From Candidatus Iainarchaeum sp. (lineage in GTDB: Archaea > Iainarchaeota > Iainarchaeia > Iainarchaeales > JAAZKV01): a stretch of DNA of 33,460 nucleotides. The stretch lies in NCBI GenBank assembly GCA_012799645.1, contig JAAZKV010000011.1, forward strand, positions 1 through 33,460. Reading direction: 5' to 3'. The notes below the pieces were generated by a model, which saw only the letters and a program-made list of their open reading frames with translations, did no database searches and had not been told where the DNA came from. Positions within the stretch are counted from its first letter, which is position 1; each line of letters starts with the position of its first letter. The translations under genes and the position numbers were made by a program. Of this stretch, positions 2,618-21,647 are shown piece after piece.

Positions 2618-3688
2618 ATGTTTAAAAAAAAATTAAGGGGACAAACAACAATAGAGTTATTGGTGCTTTTATCTATTTCTATGGTTGCTTTAACAATAAT
2701 TTTTGCGATTTATATTGATCAAGTTAATTCATCTTATGATAATCAGGATTTTTTTTTGGCAAAATCAAGTGTTCAAAAAATAGTGTCAGCAGTGAATACT
2801 GTTTATTACGCGGGTCCGGGTTCAGAGATTAAAGTAGAGTTTGAATTTCCGCGGGACACTAATTTTTCTGCTACTCGTTTTATTGGTTCTGATCTTATTG
2901 TGCAACTAAAAAATGGCCATACTTATATTGGCGGGGCTGATGTTAATGTAGTTGGTAATTTTAAACCAATTTCTGGAAAAAACATGATATATTTGTTTTA
3001 TGATGGAAATTCAGTAAAAATTCATTACAATGATTTTGAAGTAAATAAACAAAACATTTCAGTTTCCGCAATAAAGGGTGATTCTGTTTCAACAAATTTT
3101 ACTATAAGAAATAATAGTTCTGGCAAAATAAAATTTTATTTGGATAAAAATTTTTCTCACAATTCTGTTGAGTTAAATGTTAATTCTGCTAATGATTTTA
3201 ATTTACCACCTGGAGAAGTAAAAAAAATAACTGTGGATTTTAATCAATTATTATTTGCTCAAGGAAATTATTCAGGGTATATTTTAGTAATTGGTGAGAT
3301 TAATGACATTAATTTTTCAAGAAAAATTAATGTATCGCTTGAAGTTTTGACAAAAAGTGATGGTTTAGTTATTTACCCAAAAGATCTTTCTTTTGAATCA
3401 AACCCTGGTCAATCTTCTACTAAATCTTTTTCTATTTGTAATTCAACTCAAGAAAAAATTTCAATAAATTCTTGGGGGGCTGATGGACCAGAGGACAGAA
3501 ATGCTGCTGGGTGGATTAGTGCGTTACCAAATATTGTTAGTGTTTCTCCAAGGGATTGTAATAGTTTTGATTTAACGTTTAATATTCCTAGTGAGGCAGT
3601 TAGTGGAAAGTATGATGCTAATATTTTTGCAGCATTAAATGATTCAAATGTTTCCTCAAATATTTCAATCACAATTCCTAATGAGTAA
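2618..3688 (+). CDS. Class III signal-peptide surface protein (pilin-like)
   Basis: 356 residues. The N-terminus is a class III prepilin signal: a basic head, then G8|Q9-TTIE followed by a hydrophobic helix to about residue 30. In this family a prepilin peptidase cuts before Gln, and the helix packs into a pilus or anchors the protein. Residues 40-110 resemble the equivalent part of the next protein, with a shared Y-x-x-GPG motif. The rest is Ser/Asn-rich beta-strand sequence, likely two Ig-like domains (about 140-245 and 255-355), with Cys at about 274 and 317. It opens a plus-strand gene series. Likely a minor pilin or a pilus-attached adhesin. Confidence 0.85.
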   Translation: MFKKKLRGQTTIELLVLLSISMVALTIIFAIYIDQVNSSYDNQDFFLAKSSVQKIVSAVNTVYYAGPGSEIKVEFEFPRDTNFSATRFIGSDLIVQLKNGHTYIGGADVNVVGNFKPISGKNMIYLFYDGNSVKIHYNDFEVNKQNISVSAIKGDSVSTNFTIRNNSSGKIKFYLDKNFSHNSVELNVNSANDFNLPPGEVKKITVDFNQLLFAQGNYSGYILVIGEINDINFSRKINVSLEVLTKSDGLVIYPKDLSFESNPGQSSTKSFSICNSTQEKISINSWGADGPEDRNAAGWISALPNIVSVSPRDCNSFDLTFNIPSEAVSGKYDANIFAALNDSNVSSNISITIPNE

Positions 3689-3856
3689 TTAATTGTGTTG
3701 TGATTAGTGGTTTTGTTTTAATTAGTAGTTGTGTTGTAATTGGTGATTGTGTTTAATATTATTTTTTTAAATTGTTTTTTTTTTGTTCATTTTTTCCAAA
3801 AATAGTGTTATTTTTTTCTAAAAAACATTTTTTAACTCAAAAATTGTTATATATGC
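3689..3856 (+). other. G/T-rich intergenic spacer
   Basis: This 168-bp spacer is almost free of C on the plus strand in its first 70 bp and repeats elements such as ATTGTGTTGTGATT and AATTGGTGATTGTG. Similar G/T-rich spacers lie before the genes at 6326, 15006 and 15791. A TATA-like string at about 3845-3852 sits too close to the ATG at 3857 to drive that gene in the usual way. Confidence 0.5.
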
Positions 3857-6133
3857 ATGGTTTTTGGTAAAAAAAGAGCAAAATTATTTCACAAAAATGC
3901 GTTATTGGGTCAAACTACTATTGAAACTTTAATTATTTTTTCTGTATCTTTACTAATTATTACAGTAATTTTAGGGATGGCTTTTAATCACCTTCAAACC
4001 CAAAGAGATTTTGAACAAAGAAAACTTGGGGAATTTGCGTTAAATACTCTCGCGACAGAAATAAATGATGCTTATTTTTTGGGTCCTGGAACAACAAAAA
4101 CAATAGTGCTTACTTTACCTGAACTAACCAATCTCAGAAAATCATTTATTCACAAAAATGATTTAGTTCTTAATGTTGCAGGCACTGATTTGTTTAAAAC
4201 CACAGTGGTTGATGTTAAAGGAAATTGGCCAACCACTACAGGCGAGTATTCGTTTAGAATTGTGGCTTTCCCTGATTTTGTTTCAATTAATGTTGATTCA
4301 ATAGAATTTAATCCAAAAAAAATTCAAGAAAAAATATTACAATCTTCTGAAAAAAAAATTAATTTAACTATTACTAATAATTCTGATTCAGTAAAAACAT
4401 TCAATCTTTCAGTTATTCCTTTTAGTAGTAATAAAGCAACTATTTCTATTGATAATAGCTATGGAAATTTTTCAATTAATCCTTCGGAATCAACAACCAT
4501 TCCAATAACTTTACATTGTTTGTATGATTCTTCAGGAACTTATGTTGGTGGAATTAATTTTGTTTCAGATTTAACAATGACTTATCCAATTGTTGTTACT
4601 TGTGAATCAGCTCAAGAAAAATTATCGATTTATCCAGGAACAAGATCTGTTACTAATTATGCTGAGTTAAAAAATAAACAAATTTTTTCAGTGTGTAATA
4701 ATTCAGCAAATGATCTTTTTGTTGATACTTTAATTGATGGTAATTTATATCTTGTTTCTTCAACAGCAAAAAAAGTTTTTGTTCCAAAACATTCTTGTAC
4801 TCCTCTTGATTTGAATTTATTTTCAAACAATGCAGGGTTTTTTTCAGGAAAGTTAAAAATTTTTTCAGCGGGGTATAATTCTTTTTCAAATATTGATTCA
4901 AATTTTTTACCACTTCCAATACACTATTTTTTCAAATCAGTTCTTGACAATAATTTGAACAATTGGTTTTCTTTTGGAAATAACACTAAACAAAGAGAAA
5001 ATGATTTTGTGTGGATAGCAACAGGCGAACTTGATTGGAATAAAGACAAAAATTTTGCTGTGAATGGTGATGGGTGGGATCAAAATTTAATTGCTTATTA
5101 CAATTTTAATACAAAAATCCAACAAGATGGGAATTGGGTTGTTTTGGATTTAGCAAGGGGGAATGATGGGAATTTGATGAACGAAGCAAATATTGTTGAG
5201 GGTGGAGTGTGGGATTCTAACGCAATTGAATTTGATGGTGTGGATGATTATTTTGATTTAAACTATGAATCACTAATTGTTGTTCCTGATGGAACTTTTA
5301 GTGGGTGGGTTTTTAGAAAAGATAATTCACGTTCAATGATATTTTCTCTCACAGGGACACAAAATAGTTTTAACGAATTTTCTATTGATGTTGATGATTC
5401 AAACAGATTTGGACTTTCAATAAAAAAAGACAATTCTTTTTCTCTTTCATTAGATGTAAATTATCCCAGAATAGATTCAAATAAATGGTATCATTTTGCA
5501 GTGGTTTGCGGGAATGGAGGAAATAAGGTTTTTATTAATGGGGAAAAAATTTCTTCAGAGCATTTAATTTACTCTAATGGAAATTCTTCTACAACCTCTT
5601 GTTTTAGTACTCCAAACGATATTAATTCTGCAAGGATAGGGTCAAGAGATACTGGTGTTCACACTGGTCCAGGAACAACTTATGACACTTACTTTAATGG
5701 ATTAATTGATGAGGTTAGTGTTTGGGATAGAAATTTGAGTGATGGGGAAATATTTGCATTATACAATTCTAGTGTTGTTGCAAAATTTGTTGATAAAAAC
5801 ATAGTTGATGCGGGGGTGGTTGTTGATTGGAATTCTATTCAAATAAACTCAAATTTTGATTATGGTTTTGGTGATACTGTGGGAGTTTCAAGTGTTGATA
5901 TGAATGTTTATTCTTGTGATGATCCTTTTTGTGAAGTAAAAACTTCGTTTAATTATTTGGCTGATTTGAATAGTGGTTCGTTCTTTCCAATCACTATAAA
6001 TGACTCACAATACATTGGGTTTGATGTTTATTTTAAATTGATTGAAAAATATTCAAGTTATGGGGATTATAATTATGCAGGATCTTTTTTAAAAGATTTA
6101 AATATTGCATATAAACAACGAACGGAGCAATAG
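3857..6133 (+). CDS. Large class III signal-peptide protein with LamG-like domain
   Basis: 758 residues. The N-terminus has a class III signal with G18|Q19-TTIE and a hydrophobic helix to about residue 40. A pilin-like region with the motif YFLGPG follows. Residues about 150-375 are beta-rich and Ig-like. Residues about 405-640 form a laminin-G/concanavalin-like jellyroll: IAYYNF, AIEFDGVDDYF, W-YHFAVVC, VFINGEK and NGLIDEVSVWDRNLSDGEI are hallmark segments. A last beta domain of about 100 residues ends the protein. LamG domains commonly bind glycans or proteins, so this is a good candidate for a pilus-tip or surface adhesin. It follows the other long pilin-like gene on the same strand. Adhesion is inferred from domain type. 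Confidence 0.87.
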   Translation: MVFGKKRAKLFHKNALLGQTTIETLIIFSVSLLIITVILGMAFNHLQTQRDFEQRKLGEFALNTLATEINDAYFLGPGTTKTIVLTLPELTNLRKSFIHKNDLVLNVAGTDLFKTTVVDVKGNWPTTTGEYSFRIVAFPDFVSINVDSIEFNPKKIQEKILQSSEKKINLTITNNSDSVKTFNLSVIPFSSNKATISIDNSYGNFSINPSESTTIPITLHCLYDSSGTYVGGINFVSDLTMTYPIVVTCESAQEKLSIYPGTRSVTNYAELKNKQIFSVCNNSANDLFVDTLIDGNLYLVSSTAKKVFVPKHSCTPLDLNLFSNNAGFFSGKLKIFSAGYNSFSNIDSNFLPLPIHYFFKSVLDNNLNNWFSFGNNTKQRENDFVWIATGELDWNKDKNFAVNGDGWDQNLIAYYNFNTKIQQDGNWVVLDLARGNDGNLMNEANIVEGGVWDSNAIEFDGVDDYFDLNYESLIVVPDGTFSGWVFRKDNSRSMIFSLTGTQNSFNEFSIDVDDSNRFGLSIKKDNSFSLSLDVNYPRIDSNKWYHFAVVCGNGGNKVFINGEKISSEHLIYSNGNSSTTSCFSTPNDINSARIGSRDTGVHTGPGTTYDTYFNGLIDEVSVWDRNLSDGEIFALYNSSVVAKFVDKNIVDAGVVVDWNSIQINSNFDYGFGDTVGVSSVDMNVYSCDDPFCEVKTSFNYLADLNSGSFFPITINDSQYIGFDVYFKLIEKYSSYGDYNYAGSFLKDLNIAYKQRTEQ

Positions 6134-6325
6134 TGAGTTAAGTTTTATTGTATGAATGATTGTTGTGTGGGGAAGTGTTGCGTGGAATAATTTTTGTATG
6201 AGTAATTGTTGTGCAGGAGTGTTGCGCGGAGTATTGTTGTGTAAGTAATATTTTGTGTGAATAATTGTTGGGTTGAAATATTGTTGTGTGTGGTATTGTC
6301 GGTAGGAATGATTGTTGTGATTGTT
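6134..6325 (+). repeat. Degenerate GT-rich tandem repeats
   Basis: Units resembling ATTGTTGTGTG and AATAATTGTTGTG recur about every 15-20 bp and mutate gradually. The reading frame of the next gene happens to stay open through part of this stretch, giving a hydrophobic upstream extension (residues MNNCW...) that I regard as non-coding. Confidence 0.6.
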
Positions 6326-6853
6326 ATGGAAAAAACATTTTTTATTAAAAATCTCATCAAAAACTTCATCAAAAACTTCATCAAAAATCTCATCAAAAAC
6401 TTCATCAAAAACCCTATCAAAAATTTCACCAAAAATTTTGTCAAACATTTTAACAAAAATAGTTCCGGTCAAGTTTCGATGGAATTTATTGTGAGTGTAA
6501 TGATGGTGTTAATTATTTTTTTGTTTGGTTTAATGGTTTTCCAAGATAGAACCGATTTTAATTCAACCAAATTCATTAATTGGGATTCGGATGTGGTTGC
6601 AACTAGAATTGCAAGGAATATTAACAATGTTTATTTAAGTGATGAAAATACTGTTGTGTTGGATTATATTTCTTGGGTTGGGAAAAACAGATCAGTTTCT
6701 TTTACAGAGAAAGCAGTGAATGTTTGGAACGAATTCGGTTATATTGATGCTCCCATTCTTGCAAAAATAAATAACCAAGTAATTGATTTTAATGGCCCTA
6801 TTATTTTTGAAAAAACAAAAGGGATTGTAGTTGTGAGGTATCCTGATGAATAA
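6326..6853 (+). CDS. Class III prepilin with repetitive Lys/Asn N-terminal tail
   Basis: 175 residues from the ATG at 6326; an upstream in-frame ATG at 6257 would add 23 residues read from a degenerate repeat and is less likely. Residues 8-46 are a tetrapeptide repeat of the type IKNF, encoded by a 12-bp tandem repeat. The class III signal follows (G48|Q49-VSME53) with a hydrophobic helix to about residue 70. The mature part of about 125 residues has a region like the start of the two preceding proteins (RNINNVYLSDENTVVLDY). The long basic head before the cleavage site is unusual, since prepilin heads are normally short. It overlaps the next gene by 8 nt. Likely a minor pilin. Confidence 0.82.
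   Translation: MEKTFFIKNLIKNFIKNFIKNLIKNFIKNPIKNFTKNFVKHFNKNSSGQVSMEFIVSVMMVLIIFLFGLMVFQDRTDFNSTKFINWDSDVVATRIARNINNVYLSDENTVVLDYISWVGKNRSVSFTEKAVNVWNEFGYIDAPILAKINNQVIDFNGPIIFEKTKGIVVVRYPDE
6347..6460 (+). repeat. 12-bp tandem repeat inside the prepilin gene
   Basis: About eight to nine units of the form AAAAACTTCATC, with variants AAAAATCTCATC and AAAAACCCTATC, decay towards the 3' end. Read in frame they give K-N-[FL]-I. The copies nearest 6350-6410 are the most alike, which suggests recent expansion there. Confidence 0.9.
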
Positions 6854-7379
6854 TCACAATTATAATCACAATTTTTTTGTTGGGAAAAAAGGTCAATTTT
6901 TTTCTCCGGATATGATAATTGCAATATTCATTTTTGTTGTAACAATTAGTTTCTTTTTTATTTCTTCAGAAAATATATACCAACAAATAGCGTTGTTTGA
7001 AGAGAGAAAAAAAATTGATGAAATCGCTCACTCCACAATGAATTTTTTAATTTATTCACAAGGGATTCCAAGTAATTGGGAATACGCTTCGTTTGAGGAC
7101 ATAAATTTTTTTGGATTAGCGAGTGAAAGGAATACTCTTTCTAAAAATAAACTTTCTACTTTTTTTAGTTTTTTTAATCAAGATTATGAGAAGTCAAAAG
7201 AAAAATTGGGGATTGGCGGGTTTGATTTTAAATTAATTGTTTATGATTCACAAAACAATGTTATTTTTTCAGGAGGGGTTGCAAAAGAAAACTCAAAAAA
7301 AGTATATTACTATGATCGGGTTGTTTTGTATGATAATTCACCAGTGTTATTAAGAGGGGTGTTTTATAGTGCGGATTAA
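6846..7379 (+). CDS. Pilin-like membrane-anchored protein
   Basis: 177 residues. KKGQFFSPDMIIAIFIF at about 14-30 resembles an archaeal type IV pilin N-terminus (basic, G-Q, then a long hydrophobic helix to about 40), though the Glu of the class III motif is missing and Asp stands nearby. The rest is a soluble domain with no motif I recognise. The start overlaps the previous gene by 8 nt and the end overlaps the next by 11 nt, so three genes are translationally coupled. Probably a minor pilin or pseudopilin-like component of this locus. Confidence 0.8.
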   Translation: MNNHNYNHNFFVGKKGQFFSPDMIIAIFIFVVTISFFFISSENIYQQIALFEERKKIDEIAHSTMNFLIYSQGIPSNWEYASFEDINFFGLASERNTLSKNKLSTFFSFFNQDYEKSKEKLGIGGFDFKLIVYDSQNNVIFSGGVAKENSKKVYYYDRVVLYDNSPVLLRGVFYSAD

Positions 7380-7800
7380 TAAAAAAGGATTATTCATTTC
7401 AACAGATTCTTTTGTTGCTTCAGTTTTAGTATTTATTTTAGTATTAACTTCAATGGTTTTTTTGTCCCAAGTTTCTTTCAATTCTTGGAACTCAATTGAT
7501 TTAATTAATGCTTCAAGAGATGTTGCGTCGGTTCTTGAAAAATCAAATATTTTAAAAAACGCGATTAATCAAAATTCAGCAGAACTTATTTCATCTTCTT
7601 TAATAAATACTCCTCAATCTTTTTGTTTTGAGGTAACAATTTTTGAAAATACAAATTTGTCTCTTCCAATTATTAGTACAATAAAACCAGGGTGTGTGAA
7701 GTACTCAAAAGAAATTAGTTCAGTTGAGCGAACAATTGTTGTTAATCAAAATAATTCAAATAAATATTACATTGCGAGGGTGAGTGGGTGGAATCAATGA
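7369..7800 (+). CDS. Small pilin-like membrane protein
   Basis: 143 residues, starting with GTG inside the end of the previous gene. Residues about 1-35 (basic KKG, then a hydrophobic helix) match the pattern of the neighbouring pilin-like proteins. The short extracellular part contains two Cys (about residues 84 and 106) that could pair. The stop codon TGA overlaps the next ATG (ATGA). No family recognised; the operon position and architecture suggest a minor pilin. Confidence 0.75.
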   Translation: MRINKKGLFISTDSFVASVLVFILVLTSMVFLSQVSFNSWNSIDLINASRDVASVLEKSNILKNAINQNSAELISSSLINTPQSFCFEVTIFENTNLSLPIISTIKPGCVKYSKEISSVERTIVVNQNNSNKYYIARVSGWNQ

Positions 7801-8669
7801 TTAAAATTAATTCAAAAGCATTCTTTTTTACTTTTGCAGTAATATTATTCGCTTCAACTCTTGTTTTTTTAACACAATCTTTTTCATCAAAAAGTGTGCT
7901 TGATGAAAGAGAGATTATTTCTTCTTATCGTTCAACAATTATTCCTTTTCTTAATGATGATATTGGGTGTGATTTGAAAAATATTTTAGGGTTTGAAACC
8001 AGTGTTGATTATAACGGAGTTGTTTTAGAACTTAGAGTGAGTGATTCGATTTCAAAAGACACTAATGTTAGAACAGAGTTGAACAATTATTCATTGTTTT
8101 TAGATAATTATTTTAAAAGAAATCAAGGACATAAAGAAATTGATTTTTCAAACGCTCTTGATGGTAATTATGAAATATTTTATGGAGATTATGAGGAATA
8201 TTTTACTTATGTAAATGATTTTGATAATAATTCAATAAAACTTTATCCAAACACTAGTTATCCAAACACTACTAACGTTTTAGAAAAAATTGATTTGAAT
8301 ATTTTTGTGAAAGATAAACAATTAGTTGATTATAATTGGTATTCAATCGAGTCAAGTGGGGCTGTCCCAGTTTTGATTAATTATTTTGGTGATTACAATA
8401 CTTTTGAAATTTCTAAAATAATTAACCCTAGTGCGAGTTCTTCTCTTGTATTAGAGTTTGAGGATGGGGTGGTGGATATTAATTTTGGTTTAATTGGGGA
8501 AAACAGTTCTTCATTTTTAATTGATTCAGGTATTAATTCAAAAATTGATTTTAGTATTTATTCAAAGTATGTTTTTGATAAAAACGAACTCCCTATTTAT
8601 TTTAATTCAAATTTAGTTGTTTTGTTACCAGAAATTGAGTATAGTTCTTTAATTGGTTTAAAAAAATGA
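7797..8669 (+). CDS. Membrane-anchored surface protein of the pilus cluster
   Basis: 290 residues from the ATG at 7797, which overlaps the previous stop as ATGA; a GTG at 7788 would add three residues. An N-terminal basic head and hydrophobic helix (about 8-28) are followed by an Asn/Ser/Tyr-rich, beta-strand-rich region with no recognised motif. It is the last gene of the plus-strand series starting at 2618. The composition fits an extracellular protein held by one helix, most likely another pilus component. Confidence 0.75.
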   Translation: MIKINSKAFFFTFAVILFASTLVFLTQSFSSKSVLDEREIISSYRSTIIPFLNDDIGCDLKNILGFETSVDYNGVVLELRVSDSISKDTNVRTELNNYSLFLDNYFKRNQGHKEIDFSNALDGNYEIFYGDYEEYFTYVNDFDNNSIKLYPNTSYPNTTNVLEKIDLNIFVKDKQLVDYNWYSIESSGAVPVLINYFGDYNTFEISKIINPSASSSLVLEFEDGVVDINFGLIGENSSSFLIDSGINSKIDFSIYSKYVFDKNELPIYFNSNLVVLLPEIEYSSLIGLKK

Positions 8670-8760
8670 TTTTGTGAATATTTTTTGCTTTTCTCTTAAT
8701 CTAAAAGTTTTTTTTTACTCTATTTTTTTTAGAAAAAATTTTTTAGAAAAAAAATTAATT

Positions 8761-8779
8761 TGTGGGGATGTTCCCCACA
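8761..8779 (-). terminator. Hairpin terminator of the major pilin gene
   Basis: TGTGGGGA, loop TGT, TCCCCACA form a perfect 8-bp stem just past the minus-strand stop at 8791. On the minus strand it is followed by AATTAATTTTTTTTC. It is GC-rich against a very AT-rich background. It would mark the end of the pilin transcript and may protect its 3' end. Confidence 0.7.
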
Positions 8780-8790
8780 AAAAAAGAGGT

Positions 8791-9243
8791 TTAGTTGCAT
8801 GTTCCTACAATATCTGCAACTCCATTTTGTCGCATATTGGCTAGGGTTCCTTTGTTGTAATCAATGTAGATATCATTTTTTGGAAATGCGTATCTTGAAC
8901 CAGCTTCGCAAGTATAATCTATTGTTATGTTGTTTTGTGCATTTTGTTCAATATTCTTGATTGGTGTGGTATTACAATCAGTTGGACTAACACATATTTT
9001 GTTTAATTGTAGTGTTTCTGAGGTTTGGTTTTTCAGAACCAAGGTTAATTTACCATTGTTTAATGTCCAATCATCTATTGCGAATGGTGATGCTGTTTTC
9101 CAAGAAACTTTTACTGAGTTTTCGTTTGTTACTCCGAAACCGGATGTTATTTGTAATAATAATCCTACTACTACTAGTGCTATTACTACTACTATTGCAA
9201 TTATTACTAAGTATTCAATTGTTCCTTGTCCTCGTGTTTTCAT
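8791..9243 (-). CDS. Class III prepilin, probable major pilin
   Basis: 150 residues. The short head MKTRG is cut before Q6, followed by GTIEY (E10) and a hydrophobic helix to about residue 32. This is a textbook class III prepilin. The mature part of about 145 residues is Thr/Asn-rich with four Cys (about 83, 89, 111 and 149) that could form two disulfides. It is the only gene of the locus with a perfect GGAGG ribosome-binding site (minus strand, about 9251-9255), a good TATA box and a strong hairpin terminator. These signs of high, separate expression make it the best candidate for the main pilus subunit. It lies just downstream of the two platform-protein genes on the same strand. Confidence 0.88.
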   Translation of the reverse strand: MKTRGQGTIEYLVIIAIVVVIALVVVGLLLQITSGFGVTNENSVKVSWKTASPFAIDDWTLNNGKLTLVLKNQTSETLQLNKICVSPTDCNTTPIKNIEQNAQNNITIDYTCEAGSRYAFPKNDIYIDYNKGTLANMRQNGVADIVGTCN

Positions 9244-9291
9244 TTTACTACCTCCTTTTTAGTTAAAACTTTTATCAATTAATATCTTTTT

Positions 9292-9302
9292 AATATATAA
9301 AT
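9292..9302 (-). promoter_or_regulatory. TATA box of the major pilin gene
   Basis: On the minus strand ATTTATATATT lies about 50-60 bp before the ATG at 9243, giving a leader of about 27 nt that contains the GGAGG site. The pilin can therefore be transcribed apart from the upstream platform genes. Confidence 0.6.
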
Positions 9303-9327
9303 CTATTTATGAAGGGTTTTTTTACTA

Positions 9328-10374
9328 TTAAAATGTTCCGATTAGTCCCCCTACTGCTTGTATTAGAATATTGAATAAAATTATTCCAATTATCGCTATT
9401 ACGGGCGCGTATTTTATTCCTTCTCTTATTTTTCCCCCTCCAAGCACTCCAATAAATACACTTGCCAAAAATGCATTTACTATAATAATTATGTGTCCCA
9501 TTGTTATCATAAATTCTGGTGTTATTGTTACTCCTGATCCTATTACTCCAATTCCTACACTCATTCCTGCTGCGCTAGTATTGAATCCGCTTGTTTGTGC
9601 TTGGATTGAGGTTAGGATATTCAAGAATTGAACACTTACTGCGAGAAGCATTGGGGATGCGATTATTACTACAAATATAATGAATAAACTATACATTCTT
9701 GTAGCTGTCACTAGTTCTTTTTTTAGTTGGTTTGTTTGTTTGATATCATTCGCACTTGTTTCAATTAGTTGGGCAAGTTTTCCCCCTGATTTTAGTGCTT
9801 GGGAAAAAAATCTCGTAGTGTCTGCGAGTATTTTTGAATCAATTCTTTGAGCAATATCTTTTAGTGCATCAGAAAATGATTCTATTCCTAAACTTTTTTG
9901 AGTAGCGATTTGTATTTCTTCACTTAGTGGTCCAAACTCTGGTCTTACTGCTGATCGAAAAGCATAGAAGGGAGTCATTCCACTTTTCAAGTTGTTTCCT
10001 ACTAAAAACAAAAAATCCGGTAAAATATTTTCAACCATTTTTTTTCTTCCATCAATAACATAAGATAAGTGTAGGTAGAACAAAATCATTGTTCCAAAAA
10101 AACCAATTAATCCTAGCATTATCATTAGAGTCAGTGTTATGTTTGGGGTGAAGTAAAGGTTTGTGTTAAAGAGTGTGTTTAGTATTGGGAATACACTGAA
10201 GGGTATTAAAAATCCAATTAATCCAATTAGGGTTGAGAAAAATATTCTAACCCCTATCCATCTTCTTTCATTATCTCTTGATCCAGCATATCTCAACCAG
10301 GGTTTTATTTTTTGGTCAAGTATTTGTTTTGGAACAATTATTGATGATAAAATATAGATTTTGTCAAGTATCAT
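9328..10374 (-). CDS. Type II/IV secretion membrane platform protein (TadC/FlaJ type)
   Basis: 348 residues. T2SSF-type architecture: hydrophobic segments at about 45-62, 82-105, 228-250 and several at 270-345, with a cytoplasmic helical domain between (about 110-220) holding LPDFLFLVGNNLKSGMTPFYAF and RFFSQALKSGGKLAQLIETSANDI, both characteristic of the family. Such proteins form the inner-membrane platform that couples the ATPase to pilin assembly. The start overlaps the stop of the second platform gene by 4 nt, so the pair is coupled. Paired platform genes next to one ATPase recall TadB/TadC of tight-adherence pili. Confidence 0.88.
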   Translation of the reverse strand: MILDKIYILSSIIVPKQILDQKIKPWLRYAGSRDNERRWIGVRIFFSTLIGLIGFLIPFSVFPILNTLFNTNLYFTPNITLTLMIMLGLIGFFGTMILFYLHLSYVIDGRKKMVENILPDFLFLVGNNLKSGMTPFYAFRSAVRPEFGPLSEEIQIATQKSLGIESFSDALKDIAQRIDSKILADTTRFFSQALKSGGKLAQLIETSANDIKQTNQLKKELVTATRMYSLFIIFVVIIASPMLLAVSVQFLNILTSIQAQTSGFNTSAAGMSVGIGVIGSGVTITPEFMITMGHIIIIVNAFLASVFIGVLGGGKIREGIKYAPVIAIIGIILFNILIQAVGGLIGTF

Positions 10375-11264
10375 TTTATCACCTTTGGAACTTTAGCTCT
10401 TACAAGTAATATTAATCCTCCTTGGATTAAGAAAGCAATTAGTACTATTGCTATTACAGCGTTTTGTCCAATTCCGCCCCCACTAATTGAAGAAGCAATT
10501 ACTAGGAATGTTACTCCTAGTGAAGGGAGTGCTGCAGCTACTATTAAGTAAATAAGAGTCCACAAGTTTAGTTCTGCAGAGTATCTTTTGATTGATTCTC
10601 TTTGTTGTTCAACAAGGGAATCAACTTGTGCGTGGAGTGCATTAGTTAGTGATCCTCCGCTTTTTAGTGTGGTAATAATTTGCCAAATAGTTTTTTTGAG
10701 TACTTCGGATTTTGTTTTGAATGCAAGTCTTTCAAGTGCTTTGGTTTCACTCATTCCTGAATTAATGTCTTTCACTACTAGTTCAAATTCTTTTGAAACT
10801 TGTCCATAGTTTGATTTTGAAATTGATTTTATTGTTTCGAACAAACTTGTTCCTGAACTAATTTGGATTAGCATTGTTCTCAATGCGAATAATAAATCTT
10901 GTTCTATTAATCCTGCGAGTTGTTTTGAAGCAATTTTTGGGTATGATAAGTGAAAAGTCATTGCGCCAAAAAAAGCCATTATTGAAAACACTAACATAAC
11001 CATTATGGTGGTTGAGTTTATTGTTCTGGTTATTAGCACCCCAAACACCATTCCAATAAACAAAAACACAAAACTGTATATTAGTGCAGAGAATAATGAA
11101 GCTAAACAATACGCTCCTGCTGAATAATTAATGTTTGATTTTTGTAAATCGTATTTTATTTCAAAAAATATTTTGGCTATGAATCTTCCTACGGATTTTA
11201 AAAATCCTGGTACGTGCTCTGCTTTATCTATTGGGAAAAGCATCATTAATGGGTTTTTGTTCAT
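10371..11264 (-). CDS. Type II/IV secretion membrane platform protein (TadB/FlaJ type)
   Basis: 297 residues. Family landmarks are LLFALRTMLIQISSGTSLFETIKSIS at about 124-149 and KKTIWQIITTLKSGGSLTNAL at about 190-210, flanked by hydrophobic segments at about 52-75, 80-105, 232-256 and 265-288. It is coupled to the gene at 9328-10374 by a 4-nt overlap and follows the ATPase gene on the same strand after a repeat-filled gap of about 158 bp. Together the three genes supply the motor and platform of the pilus. A weak GTGA ribosome-binding site precedes the ATG. Confidence 0.87.
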   Translation of the reverse strand: MNKNPLMMLFPIDKAEHVPGFLKSVGRFIAKIFFEIKYDLQKSNINYSAGAYCLASLFSALIYSFVFLFIGMVFGVLITRTINSTTIMVMLVFSIMAFFGAMTFHLSYPKIASKQLAGLIEQDLLFALRTMLIQISSGTSLFETIKSISKSNYGQVSKEFELVVKDINSGMSETKALERLAFKTKSEVLKKTIWQIITTLKSGGSLTNALHAQVDSLVEQQRESIKRYSAELNLWTLIYLIVAAALPSLGVTFLVIASSISGGGIGQNAVIAIVLIAFLIQGGLILLVRAKVPKVIK

Positions 11265-11279
11265 AAAATTTCACTTTCA

Positions 11280-11420
11280 ACAATTTTTTGTTATAAATTA
11301 ATAATATTAATTTCTTATAAATTATTATTTCATAAATATTATTTTTTGTAAATTATTATTTCTTATAAATTATTATTTTTCATAAATCATCATTTTTCAT
11401 AATTTATTATTTTTTATTTT
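11280..11420. repeat. AT-rich degenerate tandem repeats between ATPase and platform genes
   Basis: About six units resembling CATAAATTATTATTTTT, spaced 17-21 bp apart, fill the gap between the two minus-strand genes. No promoter or hairpin stands out from the repeat. Confidence 0.6.
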
Positions 11421-11422
11421 TA

Positions 11423-14059
11423 TTACGCGTGTTTTTGATCAATTATTCTTTTCACTTCTTCAAATGATTTTTTTTCTTTAGCAAATTTTTTTATGGTTTC
11501 TGGGTATGAGTAAAACATTTTCACGATGTATCCTATATCATTTAGTTCGTTCAAATTTATTTCTTTTAACCATTCAAGTATTCGTTTTCTTTCTTTAATT
11601 TCTCTATTAATGTCTTCTTCTGTCATTCCTGTGTGTGCGTTTAGGAGGGTTATTAGTTTTGTTGGTTTGTTTAGTTTTTCCCACCCATCAGTTCTTGGCA
11701 CCCATTTGTAGATAGTGTTTATTTGTAGTCCTTGTCCGGTGCTTGTTTTTTCTATTTCAGCTATTTCGTAAGTTCTTCTTTTGTTTGTTTTTCTATCACG
11801 ATATTGCACAACAATTAAATCAATTAATTCTATTTGCATTAGTGGAATATTTATTGGTGGTTCTGCTAATCTTCTTAGCACTTGGTAACTTGAGTTTGCG
11901 TGGATTGTTGAGTAAATACTGTGTCCTGTTTCAATTGCTTCCATTAATACTTCTGCTTCTTTTTTTCTTCTAATTTCTCCCACAATTATTCTATCGGGTC
12001 TCATTCTTAGTGAAGTGATCATTAGATCAAGCATTGTTACCTCTCCGAGTCCTTCAGAGTTTGGGGATCTGGTTACTAGTGGTATCCAGTTCCATTCTAA
12101 AAATTTTGGTAAAACTATTTCTCTAACATCTTCTATAGAAATGATTCTGTGATATGATGGAACGAGTGCTAGCATTGAGTTTAGTGCACTTGTTTTTCCA
12201 CTTGCTGTTCCTCCTGCAATTAGTATGTTGAGTTCGTATTGCATTGCGAGCCATAGTGTTGCAGCCATTTCTGAATTCATTGTGTGTGCTTTTCCAATGA
12301 AATCAACTATTGTCCAAGGTTTTCTTGCAAATCTTCTAATAGTGATAGTGTTTCCTTCTGAAGAAATTGGTGAAAGAGTTGCATTTACTCTGTCTCCTGA
12401 AAGTAAGTGAGCATCAAGTATTGGGGTTAGGTTTGTGATTTCTCTCCCAATTTTTCTTCCAATTTGTGAAGCGTAATTTAGTATTTCTTCTTCATCTCCT
12501 GGAAGCATATTTGTTTTTAACCATCCGTGAACTCTGTGATACACTGTGATTGGGGTTTTTGCTGAATTGATCGCGATTTCTTCAAGCATCTCATCCCCAA
12601 TTAGTATTTCTATTTCTCCAAGTCCATACATTTCGTGTAATACTACCCCACTAAGCATATCAATTGTTTCTTCGTTAAGGTTTGGGAAGTGTTGAGTTAA
12701 TCTTTTTTTTGATTCTTCAAAAAATCTATCTTTTAATCTTTGAGCTTTTTGTGGGTCAATGATTTCTTCAAGTTCAATAGGCATTGTTTCTGCAATTTCT
12801 GTTTTAATAAAATCCAAATATTTTTTTGTATAAGTTCCAACAGAAACCAATTCAATATTATAAACCAATCTATTTTCTTCACTAGATAAGATTATGGAAA
12901 TTGTGGCCGGAACTTTATCGACTAGTAAATTGTATTTTTCAATAATTTTTCCTTCCGGTTTTTTTTCTAATCTTGGTTTTACTCCTTTTTTTAAAGTGAC
13001 AGTGGGTTTTCTGTTTAAACTTGTTGGATAATCTATTTCAACAATTCCTTCCCCTTCAAACATTTTTGTTATTTTTTCTACTTCAGAATAACTAAGTTTT
13101 GTGTGTTTTGCTAATTCATCCAAACCAATTTTTTGATAGCTTTCTATATATTCAAAAATCTCATCAACAGGGGTTTTATAGTTTTTATTAGTTAGTTCAA
13201 TTTTTTTGTTTAAGTTCTCCATTTGTATTATTGGGACAAATTCTGCATCTTCTTCATTAATTATTTCGTCCTCTTGGCTTGGAATAAATTCTGTGTTATC
13301 TTCATTAATTATTTTGTTTTCTTGGTTTATTATTCGTGGTTCTTCCACTACCTCATTCACAATTTTGTTTCTTTTTGGCCATTTTAATTCTTTATTTTCA
13401 CTAGGTTCTTCAGTTATTTCTTCTTTTATCCATTCAAGATCTTTTTGATCATTTGTTCTTGTTTCAAAAATTGGGTCAATTTCATCGGAATCAATTTTAT
13501 TAGAATTATCTTTATTAGAATTAACTTTTTTAGAATTAATTTCATCTTTAAAATTCAATTCTTTTTCAATATCTCTTTCTTCTTCATTATTTATTTTTTT
13601 TTCAACATTCTTTTTTTCAACACTTTTTTTTTCAACATTTTTTTCATCTTTAATGTTTATTTTTATTTCTGGTTGTTTTGTTGTTTCTTCGTTATTTGGA
13701 AAATAATTTTTTGAGTTTTGATCAACATTTTGGGTTTTAGAAGGATCCAATCCTGTTTCTTTTTGTTTTTCTTCGTTTTCACTATTTTCTTTTTCGTTAG
13801 TTTTTTTATTTTTTTCACTAATTTCTTTTAATTTTTCAAAAGCACTTTTTTCATCATTTTTGTAAGGAATTATTGAGCTTTTTGTTTTTTCGTTTTTTGT
13901 TATTTCATTTTTTGTTTTTTTTTCTTTTTTTTCTTTGTCATCCTTTTTTTCTTTTTCCGTGTTTTCTTCTTTTTTGTTGTTGTTCGTGTCTTTTATTATG
14001 TCTTCTTTTAGTTGTTTAAAGTAATCATTTGTGTCAGAATTTGTTTCGTTTTCGGTCAT
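11423..14059 (-). CDS. Pilus assembly/secretion ATPase with disordered tail and winged helix
   Basis: 878 residues, much longer than the roughly 500-550 usual for archaeal FlaI/TadA-type ATPases. Residues 1-290 are low-complexity Lys/Glu/Asn sequence, probably disordered. Residues about 295-360 look like a winged helix (GLDELAKHTKLSYSEVEKI, then GEGIVEIDYP). An N-terminal ATPase-family domain follows, with LHEMYGLGEIEILIGDE at about 475-490. The motor core has Walker A GGTASGKT at about 614-621, an Asp-box IISIEDVREI, a Walker B region RPDRIIVGEIRRKKE and a His-box STIHANSS. It should power pilin assembly from the cytoplasmic face together with the two platform proteins downstream. The charged tail may be a docking or tethering region. 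The ATG at 14059 has only a weak GGTA upstream. Confidence 0.92.
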   Translation of the reverse strand: MTENETNSDTNDYFKQLKEDIIKDTNNNKKEENTEKEKKDDKEKKEKKTKNEITKNEKTKSSIIPYKNDEKSAFEKLKEISEKNKKTNEKENSENEEKQKETGLDPSKTQNVDQNSKNYFPNNEETTKQPEIKINIKDEKNVEKKSVEKKNVEKKINNEEERDIEKELNFKDEINSKKVNSNKDNSNKIDSDEIDPIFETRTNDQKDLEWIKEEITEEPSENKELKWPKRNKIVNEVVEEPRIINQENKIINEDNTEFIPSQEDEIINEEDAEFVPIIQMENLNKKIELTNKNYKTPVDEIFEYIESYQKIGLDELAKHTKLSYSEVEKITKMFEGEGIVEIDYPTSLNRKPTVTLKKGVKPRLEKKPEGKIIEKYNLLVDKVPATISIILSSEENRLVYNIELVSVGTYTKKYLDFIKTEIAETMPIELEEIIDPQKAQRLKDRFFEESKKRLTQHFPNLNEETIDMLSGVVLHEMYGLGEIEILIGDEMLEEIAINSAKTPITVYHRVHGWLKTNMLPGDEEEILNYASQIGRKIGREITNLTPILDAHLLSGDRVNATLSPISSEGNTITIRRFARKPWTIVDFIGKAHTMNSEMAATLWLAMQYELNILIAGGTASGKTSALNSMLALVPSYHRIISIEDVREIVLPKFLEWNWIPLVTRSPNSEGLGEVTMLDLMITSLRMRPDRIIVGEIRRKKEAEVLMEAIETGHSIYSTIHANSSYQVLRRLAEPPINIPLMQIELIDLIVVQYRDRKTNKRRTYEIAEIEKTSTGQGLQINTIYKWVPRTDGWEKLNKPTKLITLLNAHTGMTEEDINREIKERKRILEWLKEINLNELNDIGYIVKMFYSYPETIKKFAKEKKSFEEVKRIIDQKHA

Positions 14060-14204
14060 AAAAATACCTTTTTTAGCTTTTAATTAGTAGTTCTTTCTTA
14101 TTTAATAACTTGTCTTCTTTAATTCAGGGTTTTTTTAATAGCAATTCTTAATGTTTATTCTTTAATGGTAATTCTTTAATATAGCTTAATTCAATAATAC
14201 AAGT

Positions 14205-14885
14205 ATGTATAATTCTAGTCTTGAGAAACTAAAAAAGATGCTTGAAGAAAAAAAAGGCGAGTCCACAGAGTTTCAAAAGTCACTAAATCAAGATAAATTT
14301 GATGAAATAAATTTTTTTCTTTCAAAAGAAAAAAAAATAATTGATGAATTGGAGAAACAAATTAGTTTTTCTAAAAATACTCAAACAATTATTGGGTGTG
14401 ATTCAGTAAATAACAAAGATGTTTCTCTTGCTTTGATTAAATTTATTTTAAACTCTAACAAAACCCCTATTTTTATTTTAACAACAACTAATTATAATCA
14501 ATTTTTGAGTTATTTGTCAGAAAATAAGATTGATTCTGATAAAATATTTTTGATTGACACGATTTCTAAAAGTATTTCAAGAGTTGCAAACACGAGTAAT
14601 ATTTTTTTTGTTGATTCTTTAAGAAATTTAACTCAATTGCAAATAAAATTAGTTAAATTGATTGAGGGAAAAAATTCTTCTGACCAAGAGTGTGTTGTGG
14701 TTTTTGACTCGTTAGATGTTTTTTCTCTGTATCATGATGATCAAATAATACTAAAATTTGTTTATTCAATGACTAAACTTTTGCACAAACATTCTGTTTC
14801 TGGTTTCTTTTTATCAAGCAAAAATCCGTTTTTACCAAAACTGGTTCAATTTTTTGATGATTTTGTTGAATTAAAAAAATTCTAA
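14205..14885 (+). CDS. Degenerate RecA/KaiC-fold protein with N-terminal coiled coil
   Basis: 226 residues. The first 60 are charged and helical (coiled-coil-like). The rest follows a RecA-like strand order: TQTIIGCDS, TPIFILTTTNYNQF, then VVVFDSLDVFSLYHD at about 168-182 as a Walker-B-like segment, then GFFLSSK. There is no Walker A loop. The same pattern occurs in the protein at 1851-2438. In archaella, ArlH is a RecA/KaiC-family partner of the motor ATPase ArlI; a nucleotide-independent analogue next to the ATPase gene is an attractive but unproven reading. A TATA-like TTTAATATAG about 20-30 bp before the ATG suggests a leaderless transcript. Divergent from the ATPase gene. Confidence 0.72.
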   Translation: MYNSSLEKLKKMLEEKKGESTEFQKSLNQDKFDEINFFLSKEKKIIDELEKQISFSKNTQTIIGCDSVNNKDVSLALIKFILNSNKTPIFILTTTNYNQFLSYLSENKIDSDKIFLIDTISKSISRVANTSNIFFVDSLRNLTQLQIKLVKLIEGKNSSDQECVVVFDSLDVFSLYHDDQIILKFVYSMTKLLHKHSVSGFFLSSKNPFLPKLVQFFDDFVELKKF

Positions 14886-14930
14886 TATTTTGTTTTTAGA
14901 AAACTATTAATACTCCTTAAATAGTTAGTA

Positions 14931-15014
14931 TTAGGTGTGGGTTATTAAGTATGGGTTATTAGGTGTGGGTTATTAGGCGAAGTTATTTGGTGAAGGTTAT
15001 TAGGTATGGGTTTT
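14931..15014 (+). repeat. 14-bp tandem repeats running into a start codon
   Basis: Six units related to TTAGGTGTGGGTTA follow one another. The ATG of the next gene at 15006 lies inside the last unit (GGTATGGGTT), so the repeat makes up its whole translation-initiation region. Earlier units read ATG-GGT-TAT-TAG, a two-residue stop. Confidence 0.8.
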
Positions 15015-15716
15015 GTAATTAATCTTATTTCTAGAAGAAAAGTAATTTATCCTTTTTTTGTAATAATGATTTGTTTAGTTATTTTAACCTTGATTTTTTT
15101 GTTTTTTTTTACAAAACCATTAGAGGTGTATGATTCTTCTATTTCTGTTTCTGGGGAAAATTTGATTTTGACACTTGGGGTAGAAAATGTTTCTAACCAT
15201 TTAGTTAAAGATATTGAAGTGGTTGTTCTTTTTGGTGGTGAAAAAAAATTCTTTAAACTTAAACCCGAAAATAATTTCTTGTTGCCAGGAGAAACATACT
15301 CTGGTTTGTATGAGGTGCCAATAGTTGATTCAAATTTGTATGATGTTGTTGTTCAATCCCCATTTAATAGGCCTGCAAAATTGTTTTTTGAACTTGAAGA
15401 ATCCACTCTAAAACCGGTTAGGGTTGATGTGTTGTTGCCTGAAAATATGGTTGTTGGTAAAAAGTATGATGTTGTGTATAAGCTTTGTAATGTTTCTAAC
15501 AATAATTTGCATGATGTTTCTTGGCTTGAAACTGTTGATAAAAGATATTTTTCCGGCGATTATTTTTTGAAAACAATTTCCTTAAATGTTAATGAATGCA
15601 TAAACTTATATTCAACTTTAACTCCAATTAAATCTGGGGAGTCAAGAATTTCTTTTTTGTTAAAAGTGGGTGCGTTAGAACAAAAACTTTCACAAGAAGT
15701 GGTAGTTGGGGAGTAG
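15006..15716 (+). CDS. Membrane-anchored beta-rich extracellular protein
   Basis: 236 residues. A basic start (SRRK) and one hydrophobic helix (about 14-36) anchor the protein. The remainder looks like two beta-sandwich domains: about 40-135 (LILTLGVENVSNHLVKDIEVVV resembles CARDB-like or NEW1-like Ig repeats) and about 136-236 (KYDVVYKLCNVSNNNLHDVSW). Two Cys (about 163 and 198) could pair. One helix plus beta-sandwich is also the plan of the archaellum stator proteins ArlF/ArlG, so a stator or periplasmic support role in the pilus is possible. The start codon lies within a tandem repeat. Confidence 0.78.
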   Translation: MGFVINLISRRKVIYPFFVIMICLVILTLIFLFFFTKPLEVYDSSISVSGENLILTLGVENVSNHLVKDIEVVVLFGGEKKFFKLKPENNFLLPGETYSGLYEVPIVDSNLYDVVVQSPFNRPAKLFFELEESTLKPVRVDVLLPENMVVGKKYDVVYKLCNVSNNNLHDVSWLETVDKRYFSGDYFLKTISLNVNECINLYSTLTPIKSGESRISFLLKVGALEQKLSQEVVVGE

Positions 15717-15790
15717 GTTGTGTTAAGTAATTAATTGTGTTAGTGGTTGGGGGTTAGTTAATTGTTGTTTGGTTGTTGTGTGGTGTGTTT

Positions 15791-16435
15791 ATGAAAAATG
15801 AATCAATAATTCAAGTTATTCAAAAAATGGTTCAAGAGGGCCAATCGAGAGAAAAAATTGTTTCAACTCTTAAAGATCTAGGAGTTAATGATGAGCAAGC
15901 AAAAAAATTATTGTTGATTGCTGAAGCAGATACTTTTACTTTACTAAAAAAAGAAATAAATTCAATGGTTAGAGAAGAATTTTCAAATAATAAAAAAGAT
16001 TTTGACAATTTGATTCGCAGTGAATTAAAAAAAATTGAGGATAATGAAAAAGAAAGAGTGGAACAAGTTGCGTTGGCTCAATTGGGTCAAGTTGAAAAAG
16101 ATGTTCTTGATAAAACAAAAGCTTTTGAAACAAGAGTTAATGAGGTGGTGGGGTCTTCACAAAAAACTGTGGGTATGGTAAAAATTGCTCTTGATTCTGT
16201 TCACGAAAAACTATCACAAGTTGAGCTTGACATAGAACAAATAAAAGTTCATAAGTACAGAAAAAAAACAATGTTATTTTCTTACGGGTTTTTGGTTTTA
16301 GGTCTTTTAATATTACTATTTTCGTTCGGTTTATTTGTAGTAAAACTCAATGAACTTGATCTTCAACAAATGCTCATAATTGGTCTCGCAATGCTTACAA
16401 GCATAGTGTTTATGTTTGCTTCAATAGTGAGTTAA
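15791..16435 (+). CDS. Coiled-coil protein with two C-terminal membrane helices
   Basis: 214 residues from the ATG at 15791; a TTG at 15773 would add six residues read from a GT-rich spacer. Residues about 10-45 look like a small helical domain (QKMVQEGQSREKIVSTLKDLGVNDEQAKKLL, a UBA/CUE-like pattern). Residues about 50-155 are charged coiled coil. Two hydrophobic helices follow at about 160-182 and 190-212. The bulk should be cytoplasmic. It follows the stator-like gene on the same strand and may link the membrane to cytoplasmic pilus parts. Function not known. Confidence 0.78.
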   Translation: MKNESIIQVIQKMVQEGQSREKIVSTLKDLGVNDEQAKKLLLIAEADTFTLLKKEINSMVREEFSNNKKDFDNLIRSELKKIEDNEKERVEQVALAQLGQVEKDVLDKTKAFETRVNEVVGSSQKTVGMVKIALDSVHEKLSQVELDIEQIKVHKYRKKTMLFSYGFLVLGLLILLFSFGLFVVKLNELDLQQMLIIGLAMLTSIVFMFASIVS

Positions 16436-16710: not shown

Positions 16711-17532
16711 ATGACTAGTATTGAGGCAAGAACTAAAGAAGTTAATGAAATTGTTGAAGATATTAAAGAAATTGATGAAAAGATTGATGAAGTAAATGAT
16801 GAAGAATTGGATAAAGAGTTTGATGAAGAAAATGAAGAAAATGAAGAAGTTGCTGTGGATAGTGGTGCAGGGGCCGAGAATAAATTGCCTTTTCCTAGGG
16901 CTACAATAACTAACCTTATTAGAAAAAATGTTTCAAAAGGTAAGCAAATTAAGGGCACTGTTAAGGATGAAATGAATATTTGGGTTGATTCTTTAATAGA
17001 AAAAATAACCAAAAAAATGGATTCTCAACCGTATACCTTTGTTAATTATGATATGTTAAAAGAAGCAATTGGTCCTTATGAAGGAATGAAAAATTTGAAC
17101 GAACAAAGGGTTGAACTTTTAACAAAAATTAATTCTATCAAAACTCAGTGTGATGAAGTTATTGCAAAAATTGATTCTGATGCAAAGTCAAACACTGTTT
17201 CATTAAATATTAATAATACTGATTTGCCTTTTCCAAAAGCTACAATAACTAACAAAATTAGACAAAATCTTTCACCAGGAAAAACAATTAAAGGTCCTGT
17301 TAAAAGAGGATTGAATGTTTGGCTTGGGGGGATTGTTGAAAGAGTGTCAAAAAAAATGGATTCATATAATTATCCTTACATTGATAGAAGTATGTTCAAA
17401 GAAGCGATTGAACCATATGATACAATAACAGAAATTGAATTGGAGAAAGAAAGAATAATTCAACAAATGCAATCAATGAAAACAATTTGTGATATACTTT
17501 CTTTAGAAATTGATAGAAAATTTAAATTATAG
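16711..17532 (+). CDS. Tandem histone-fold protein with coiled coils
   Basis: 273 residues. The first 57 residues are acidic. Two internal repeats follow. Each starts LPFP[RK]ATITN-IR (about 59 and 172), has a long central helix (about 83-104 and 196-217), then a third helix ending MLKEAI or MFKEAI (about 114-120 and 227-233). Each is followed by a coiled coil (about 122-157 and 234-268). The helix-strand-helix-strand-helix order and the LPF start match archaeal histones such as HMfB. Histone folds joined to coiled coils have been described in DPANN genomes as coiled-coil histones. Two folds on one chain would make a built-in dimer. DNA binding is inferred; Lys/Arg are frequent in the folds. 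Own promoter upstream. Confidence 0.78.
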   Translation: MTSIEARTKEVNEIVEDIKEIDEKIDEVNDEELDKEFDEENEENEEVAVDSGAGAENKLPFPRATITNLIRKNVSKGKQIKGTVKDEMNIWVDSLIEKITKKMDSQPYTFVNYDMLKEAIGPYEGMKNLNEQRVELLTKINSIKTQCDEVIAKIDSDAKSNTVSLNINNTDLPFPKATITNKIRQNLSPGKTIKGPVKRGLNVWLGGIVERVSKKMDSYNYPYIDRSMFKEAIEPYDTITEIELEKERIIQQMQSMKTICDILSLEIDRKFKL

Positions 17533-20015: not shown

Positions 20016-21647
20016 ATGGCTGAAAATGGACAAGATAATGCTTTCATGGGTGAGGGCACAAAAAGAACCAGAGGAAAGGATGCTCAAAGAATGAATATTT
20101 TGATTGCACGAGCGGTGGCTCATGCAGTAAAAACAACTCTTGGTCCTAAAGGAATGGACAAAATGATTGTTGATGATTTGGGGGATGTTACTATCTCTAA
20201 TGATGGGGCAACTATTTTATCAGAAATGGCGATTGAACACCCTGTTGGAAAAATGATGGTTGATGTTGCAAAAACTCAAGATAAAGAAGTTGGGGATGGA
20301 ACAACATCAGCAGTGGTGTTAGCTGGAACTTTTTTAGAGAAAGCAGAAAAATTAATTGATGATTCAATTCATCCAAGTGTAATAATTAATGGGTACAGAA
20401 TGGCTGCTCAAAAATCAAAAGAATTTTACACAGAGATCGCTGACCCGATTGATTTTTCTGATAAAAAATTAATTAAAACAGTAGCACTGACTTCAATGAC
20501 TGGTAAAGCTGCAGAATCATCAGAAGTATTAGCTGATATTGTGGTTAATGCTGTTACTTCAGTTGTTGATAATGTTGACAAAAAAATGATTATTAATGAA
20601 GATAATATAAAACTTGAAAAAAAAACAGGGGGATCACTAAAAGATACTCAACTTGTGAGTGGAATTGTTATTGACAAAGAAATTGTTCATTCTGCAATGC
20701 CAAGAAATATTGCTGATGCAAAAATCGCTTTGCTTGATTTGGCTCTTGAAGTGAGAGAACCAGAGAGTGATGCAAAAATTGAGATCAATACTCCTGAACA
20801 ACTTCAAGCATTTATTGATGAGGAAGAAAGACAACTAAAACAAATGGTTACACAAATAAAAAATGCTGGGGCTAATGTTGTGTTTACTCAAAAAGGAATT
20901 GATGATCTTGCACAACACTACTTGGCTAAAGAAAAAATCATTGCGGTGAGAAGAGTAAAAAAATCTGATATGGATGCACTAGCAAGAGCAACAGGAGCAA
21001 GTATTGTGACAAGCATTAAAGAACTAAATTCAAAAGATTTGGGGTACGCAGGAAAAGTTCTTGAAAGAAAAATTGCAGGGGACAATATGGTGTTTGTGGA
21101 AGGGTGCAAAAACCCAAAAAGTGTATCAATCCTAATAAGAGGGGGAACAGAACACGTAGTTGATGAAGCAGAAAGAGCACTAGTTGATTCAATTGGAGCA
21201 GTGGCTTCAGCAATTGAAATGGGAAAAATACTAGTGGGGGCAGGTTCTTGCGAAATAGAAGTTGCAATGAAATTAAGAGATTATGCAAAAACTGTTGGAG
21301 GAAGAGAACAACTAGCAATAGAAGCATTCGCTGAAGCACTAGAAATAATTCCTAGAACACTAGCAGAAACAGCAGGAATGGATCCAATAGACACTCTAGT
21401 AAATTTGAGAAGTATGCACACAAAAAAAGACGGAAAATATGTTGGGGTAAATGTATACAAATCAAAAGTAGAGGATATGAAAAACGCAAAAGTGCTAGAA
21501 CCACTAAAAGTAAAAACCCAAGCAATAGATTCAGCAAGTGAAGTAGCAGAAATGATACTAAGAATTGATGACATAATTTTAGGATCATCAAAAGCAAAAA
21601 TGCAACCAGGAATGGGCGGAATGGGCCCAAACGGAATGGAAATGTAA
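20016..21647 (+). CDS. thsA: Thermosome subunit (group II chaperonin)
   Basis: 543 residues, the usual length. Hallmarks are [29 protein letters not shown] at about 41-69, [13 protein letters not shown] at about 91-103 with the catalytic Asp of GDGTT, a helical-protrusion apical domain at about 215-370, [16 protein letters not shown] at about 374-389, [10 protein letters not shown] at about 408-417, and a flexible [10 protein letters not shown] tail ending in the Met-rich motif of archaeal subunits. It forms double-ring cages that fold proteins using ATP. A GGGGG site lies 8 nt before the ATG and a strong hairpin terminator follows. Leucine codons shift from TTA/CTT/TTG to mostly CTA in the last third. 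The alpha/beta assignment cannot be made from one gene, so the symbol is generic. Confidence 0.97.

Follow-up and report, generated by a model that had tools for sequence, protein, structure and literature searches.

A conserved type IV pilus locus of DPANN archaea in Candidatus Iainarchaeum, with a candidate winged-helix partner of its motor ATPase

Introduction

What kind of machine is encoded by a cluster of pilin, platform and ATPase genes in Candidatus Iainarchaeum sp., and which of the neighbouring genes belong to it? Pili are leading candidates for the contact of DPANN archaea with other cells, and few of their parts have been characterised. The cluster lies in a stretch of 33,460 nucleotides, analysed here as a whole and called the window, from a genome available as a 0.78 Mb (779 kb) assembly that is 89% complete. 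The comparison reported below delimits a set of pilus genes that is conserved throughout one DPANN order, and suggests a partner of the ATPase that previous censuses had not picked out.

Results

Gene content of the locus

A preliminary description of this DNA had listed pilus genes on both strands between positions 2618 and 16435, and all of them are indeed found where it had placed them, as confirmed by the sequence and, for the ATPase, the platforms, the signal of G and the LamG domain, by Pfam. This gene content lends good support to its proposal of a pilus that has a motor, pilins and probable adhesins of its own. Two further genes outside that interval are also members of the locus, namely a KaiC-family RecA ATPase that is likely a regulator (948-1787, + strand; Pfam KaiC E 9e-58, with an intact Walker A, GSAGTGKT) and a DUF835-like degenerate RecA protein without Walker A (1851-2438, − strand; DUF835 E 7e-7, under the Pfam cut-off). 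The same description had spoken of archaellum-like RecA partners, which is not borne out, since KaiC is far nearer to the KaiC_arch_3 model (7e-47) than to ArlH (4e-7) and the two other RecA-like proteins lack Walker A.

The plus strand then carries A (2618-3688), a large class III pilin with the signal GQTTIE and Ig-like domains seen as weak Pfam matches, and B (3857-6133), a class III protein with the same signal and a LamG domain (Laminin_G_3, E 1.4e-15, aa 460-632), a candidate adhesin. These are followed by C (6326-6853), a small class III minor pilin (GQVSMEF) with an uncertain start and a long repetitive leader, and by three minor pilin-like proteins, D (6846-7379; GQFFSPD), E (7369-7800; KGLFISTD, two invariant cysteines) and F (7797-8669; assigned from the alignment and an AlphaFold model), of which D and E represent order-wide families and F is the largest of the minor set. 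D, E and F each open with a short charged stretch and then a single hydrophobic helix.

The minus strand encodes G (8791-9243), the probable major pilin (KTRGQGTIEY; Pfam class III signal E 5e-6), two TadC/T2SSF platform proteins, H (9328-10374; Pfam T2SSF E 2e-13) and I (10371-11264; E 2e-16), and the pilus ATPase J (11423-14059; Pfam T2SSE E 3e-32). Likely start corrections place C at 6326, F at 7797 and the downstream gene M at 15791 (alternative M start 15773). Two A24 prepilin peptidases score over the cut-off in the same genome. Genomic features by which an archaeal type IV pilus is recognised are found: a secretion ATPase with intact motifs, a T2SSF platform, class III signals together with a predicted pilin fold, and a prepilin peptidase.

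The leader of C contains a 36-bp (12-bp) tandem array (6341-6460) that codes for IKNFIKN repeats ahead of the signal site, and many short tandem arrays occupy the intergenic gaps of this contig.

Conservation of the locus

Across the order, the locus is built from two recurring gene runs, KaiC-A-C-D-E-F and J-I-H-G, often joined in one co-directional run (L045, L048, L049, L060, L061), and the same genes lie together in most families that have an ATPase of the DPANN clade described below and enough flanking sequence. In another locus of the window's own family (f1) the whole set forms one block (L041). KaiC adjoins pilin A in many of the order's families, relatives of the DUF835-like protein recur near KaiC in pilus loci, and relatives of C sit between A/B and D. 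The core is likewise found in GW2011_AR10, a member of the same order that has been placed in Diapherotrites (PMC8407392), and the same content occurs outside the order, for example in Micrarchaeum (L111, Micrarchaeota). A chance cluster is ruled out by this conserved synteny in many other families.

Thus, the core does not scatter in relatives, and the preliminary statement that the locus matches no standard one had to be given up: conservation of the core extends through the order and outside it, its ATPase belongs to a DPANN-wide clade, and such loci have already been published. The variable part is decoration, consisting of the LamG domain, K, and the neighbouring L-M pair.

In the family of the window (L036, L037, L041) a thermosome gene (20016-21647 in the window) is found within a few kb of the pilus genes; a GroEL gene was drawn in one cluster 2 DPANN pilus locus by Hamm et al. 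(PMC11291902).

Genes K, L and M beside the motor

Downstream of the ATPase on the plus strand are K (14205-14885), a Walker-less RecA-like protein between J and L (Pfam DUF7504 E 1e-5, and alignment), L (15006-15716), a single-pass protein with one TM segment and a beta-rich outside part, and M (15791-16435), with a helical N-terminal domain, a coiled-coil-like region and two C-terminal TM segments. L and M are conserved neighbours order-wide (L in 45 and M in 62 of 68 genomes), and the tie of both to the pilus is uncertain.

L, M and perhaps K might be integral to the pilus, with L acting outside the cell as an Ig-like anchor and M as a membrane-bound coiled-coil tether of the ATPase, in a stator-like base; we consider this arrangement possible and hold it only tentatively. 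Several observations speak for it. The order J-K-L is kept in those f1 loci that cover the stretch, followed by M wherever the contig extends that far, and in two other families (f20 and f3) a few kb separate the L-M pair from pilus genes. The N-terminal domain of M also recurs at the start of the protein encoded just upstream of a related pilus ATPase (66 bits in L188, 59 bits in L190), and in L189 the ATPase itself matches this domain weakly (24 bits). Of the 47 genomes with a DPANN-clade ATPase, 46 contain M, as do 16 of the 21 that lack one (p 0.009, counted by hand, with the clade taken as an ATPase match below 1e-100 and kinship ignored).

However, the pair abuts the pilus locus only in f1, and K adjoins J only there. 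In most families L-M stands in unrelated surroundings, with a GTPase, Hjc and a Toprim protein as neighbours, and is usually remote from pilus genes; in GW2011_AR10 the distance to the pilus locus is about 130 kb. In the families examined other than f1, K was not observed next to L-M, and several near-complete genomes have M and lack the DPANN-clade ATPase. The gene that precedes L-M in other families is not K; it encodes an MMR_HSR1 GTPase. A role of L and M in pili is possible, and a dependence on this pilus type is unlikely. The stator suggested in the preliminary description is thus hypothetical, given the position of L-M away from the locus outside f1, and keeps some plausibility from the recurrence of the M N-terminal domain beside a related pilus ATPase.

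Further along the window, protein N (16711-17532, + strand) consists of two tandem domain copies (LPFPRATITNLIRK...VKDEMN...FVNYDMLKEAI) followed by helical segments, and has single-copy relatives of 130-190 aa order-wide; by eye, its domain resembles the archaeal histone fold. Two RuBisCO-like large-chain proteins also appear, by eye, to be encoded in this genome (window 30755-32278 and L196:42-1328).

Pilins and the predicted fibre

G is preceded by a TATA-like box, TTTATATA, and by a strong AGGAGGT ribosome site, which make good expression plausible. In an alignment of 18 relatives, two cysteines are invariant and the signal reads KGQGTTEYL, with 17 of the 18 matching the class III signal family. 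The AlphaFold model of G (pLDDT 89.8) starts with a long helix at the N terminus and continues as a beta-rich domain. When it was searched against the PDB with Foldseek, the top match was the type IV pilin of Pyrobaculum calidifontis (8fk7, E 8.7e-4), with Sulfolobus pili lower; VIA-align also puts 8fk7 first (Z 8.3, barely over unrelated beta domains). G is thus predicted to have an archaeal pilin fold.

Four of 15 members of the D family match DUF7287, weakly. The AlphaFold model of F (pLDDT 82.7) shows a 59-residue N-terminal helix and a large beta domain, for which a fold search against the PDB gave no clear match. F is the biggest of its set and its aligned sequence is missing the acidic residue at +5, by which it possibly recalls GspK.

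Relatives of A throughout the order are 500-840 aa long. The LamG domain is present in the window and in a second locus of the same genus (L038), and was not found in ten A/B-type proteins; these came from eight loci, of which seven belong to other families of the order. General adhesion would fit the one LamG domain and the weak Ig-like matches.

The preliminary description had suggested attachment to a host cell. Surfaces and biofilms are the usual targets of pili of this class, which counts against a dedicated organ for attachment to a host archaeon, as would be expected of a symbiotic DPANN. Such a role would agree with the candidate LamG adhesin in the same gene run and with the small genome (0.78 Mb), and type IV pili have been proposed to aid DPANN-host contact (PMC11291902, PMC6142677). 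Nevertheless, the core locus is common to GW2011_AR10, the label putatively free-living is often given to this phylum (PMC12892359, PMC8561730), no host is known, and the sequence offers no specific support, so that we regard host attachment as unlikely.

A secretion system, with a short pseudopilus that exports proteins such as A and B and makes no surface fibre, appears less likely still. The four small pilin-like proteins in a row do resemble the minor pseudopilins of type II secretion, and T2SSE and T2SSF parts are present; yet A and B themselves carry pilin signals, and G combines the modelled fold of archaeal surface pilins with an unusually strong ribosome site.

The ATPase J and its relatives

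J consists of a K/E/N-rich region (about aa 1-285), a winged-helix domain (aa 296-361) and then the motor core. Its motifs are intact (Walker A GGTASGKT, and RPDRIIVGEIR), the motif columns are invariant in the alignment, and the nearest solved relative is Archaeoglobus GspE (E 2e-65). J scores 263 bits with the archaellum motor model (cut-off 550) and 171 bits with the TadA model (under the cut-off of 373).

A phylogeny of the ATPase had been named as a check by the preliminary description. In maximum-likelihood trees J falls within a 41-row DPANN clade (ultrafast bootstrap/SH-aLRT 100/99), inside a subgroup of 21 rows from Iainarchaeota, Micrarchaeota and Altiarchaeales (99/96), apart from a separate clade of FlaI and euryarchaeal ATPases (100/99), the archaellum being represented in these trees by one solved FlaI fragment and clade 1 by no named sequence. 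J is thus not within the euryarchaeal clade, that is, it does not belong to clade 2 pili. A rotary archaellum-like motor, for which one could cite the match of J to the archaellum motor model and the membership of KaiC in the ArlH superfamily, has a negligible chance and is rejected on account of the different, supported clade of FlaI (one fragment in the tree) and of the lack of any ArlH over the cut-off in this 89% complete genome, as is further indicated by two platform proteins in place of one ArlJ.

The same genome encodes four further T2SSE-type ATPases (G000:C24, L055 and L056; G000:C10, L057; G000:C12, L058), and the pilus-type ones among them on C24 (twice) and C10 are placed elsewhere in the tree. 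A second complete pilus locus, L056, includes a large A24 prepilin peptidase of its own, and this paralog may be closer to Makarova clade 1 pili than J is.

A winged-helix domain at the motor

The domain at aa 296-361 gives weak but concordant matches to several winged-helix families in relatives of J. A profile built from it was used to scan 1,889 ORFs of the window and of the collected loci, which had been gathered via their ATPase and in which genes were called mechanically. Among loci of the DPANN clade, the domain is fused to the ATPase in 35, encoded by the gene immediately upstream in 30 and absent in 12, with two more loci cut by a contig end. A fused or immediately upstream copy is thus found in 65 of 77 DPANN loci and in none of 45 euryarchaeal and other control ATPases (Fisher p 1e-22, which ignores kinship and is a guide only). 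At least some of the 12 loci without an upstream winged-helix gene are cut by contig ends or contain spurious small ORFs. Conversely, 34 proteins other than ATPases carry the domain, and 30 of these are direct upstream neighbours of the ATPase. In the window there is no separate coiled-coil protein gene beside the ATPase; the domain is fused to J instead.

Fusion in one branch together with adjacency in others is a classic sign of interacting partners. The distribution over the DPANN loci and the controls therefore suggests that the winged-helix protein or domain is a partner of the ATPase. The stand-alone proteins begin with helix-turn-helix matches, continue with coiled-coil-like sequence and are mostly without a predicted TM segment, and they look cytoplasmic. 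The third helix of the domain is acidic in most rows of the alignment, which makes a protein contact likelier than DNA binding, so that a DNA-binding element appears less likely. Taken together, we lean somewhat towards the view that DPANN pilus ATPases nearly always have a winged-helix protein, in many cases with a long coiled coil, as a cytoplasmic subunit, that the other archaeal pili sampled lack this protein, and that it has fused to the motor in the lineage of the window.

A literature search for winged helices together with archaeal pilus ATPases found nothing relevant among the papers available; the N-terminal winged-helix domain of J, and its separate upstream gene elsewhere in DPANN, are new here.

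In two loci a C2H2 zinc finger adjoins the winged-helix domain (L049:14849-15148 and L054:9712-10044), one being fused to the pilus ATPase and one lying in a small upstream protein.

Discussion

As a whole, the locus is best explained, with a high degree of probability, as a DPANN-specific type IV pilus assembly locus of Diapherotrites/Iainarchaeota, known from genes alone. In such a machine, prepilins would enter the membrane and be cut ahead of the hydrophobic helix by an A24 peptidase encoded elsewhere. The minor pilins C-D-E-F would begin the fibre, F possibly forming a cap similar to GspK. Ig-like and LamG domains would be borne outward, as adhesive parts, by the two large pilins, A and B. 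J would power the paired platform I-H, extruding a fibre made mainly of G, while KaiC and the DUF835-like proteins would probably regulate the pilus and the winged-helix domain, fused to J, would serve as a cytoplasmic partner or scaffold of the ATPase. If the last point is true, the coiled-coil proteins beside DPANN pilus genes would act as scaffolds or regulators of the motor and would not belong to the surface. Whether they are located at the motor within the cell or on its outer surface can now be tested directly.

Among the closest published systems are those of Hamm et al. (2024), who described, across cluster 2 of the DPANN, two pilus loci accompanied by coiled-coil proteins that are similar to viral attachment proteins (PMC11291902). 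Like the window, these loci have a CpaF-type ATPase, a TadC platform and pilins, in their case with a coiled-coil gene nearby, and several of the cluster 2 lineages also appear in the ATPase clade of J. In the cluster 1 locus described here, by contrast, the winged-helix domain is fused to the ATPase, and the KaiC-A-C-D-E-F set and the paired platform are described for Iainarchaeota. Their coiled-coil proteins, discussed as attachment-like, are probably the same as our winged-helix coiled-coil proteins, whereas the equivalents here look cytoplasmic.

DPANN pilus islands rich in unrecognised pilins have been reported (Makarova et al. 2019, PMC6393860), and the available part of an earlier census (Makarova et al. 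2016, PMC4858521) describes archaeal pilus loci that combine a single ATPase with two TadC proteins, several minor pilins, adhesin-like proteins and, near some, KaiC. Clades 1 and 2, as given in that part, share with our locus the ATPase with two TadC, at least five minor pilins, large adhesin-like proteins and the occasional nearby KaiC; they differ in that J lies outside the euryarchaeal clade and LamG stands in place of DUF2341, and the same part of the text does not mention a winged-helix partner for these loci.

With the bacterial Tad/Flp pilus the locus shares paired platform proteins and a TadA/CpaF-like ATPase, but J stays under the TadA cut-off, the pilins are archaeal class III and no outer-membrane parts are expected. 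With the archaellum it shares the ATPase superfamily, a RecA-fold neighbour and class III signals, and it differs in its ATPase clade, in having KaiC and not ArlH (none scoring over the cut-off in the genome) and in its two platforms. The locus is a real and well-conserved DPANN type IV pilus locus, and its new element is the winged-helix domain, the suggested partner of the motor.
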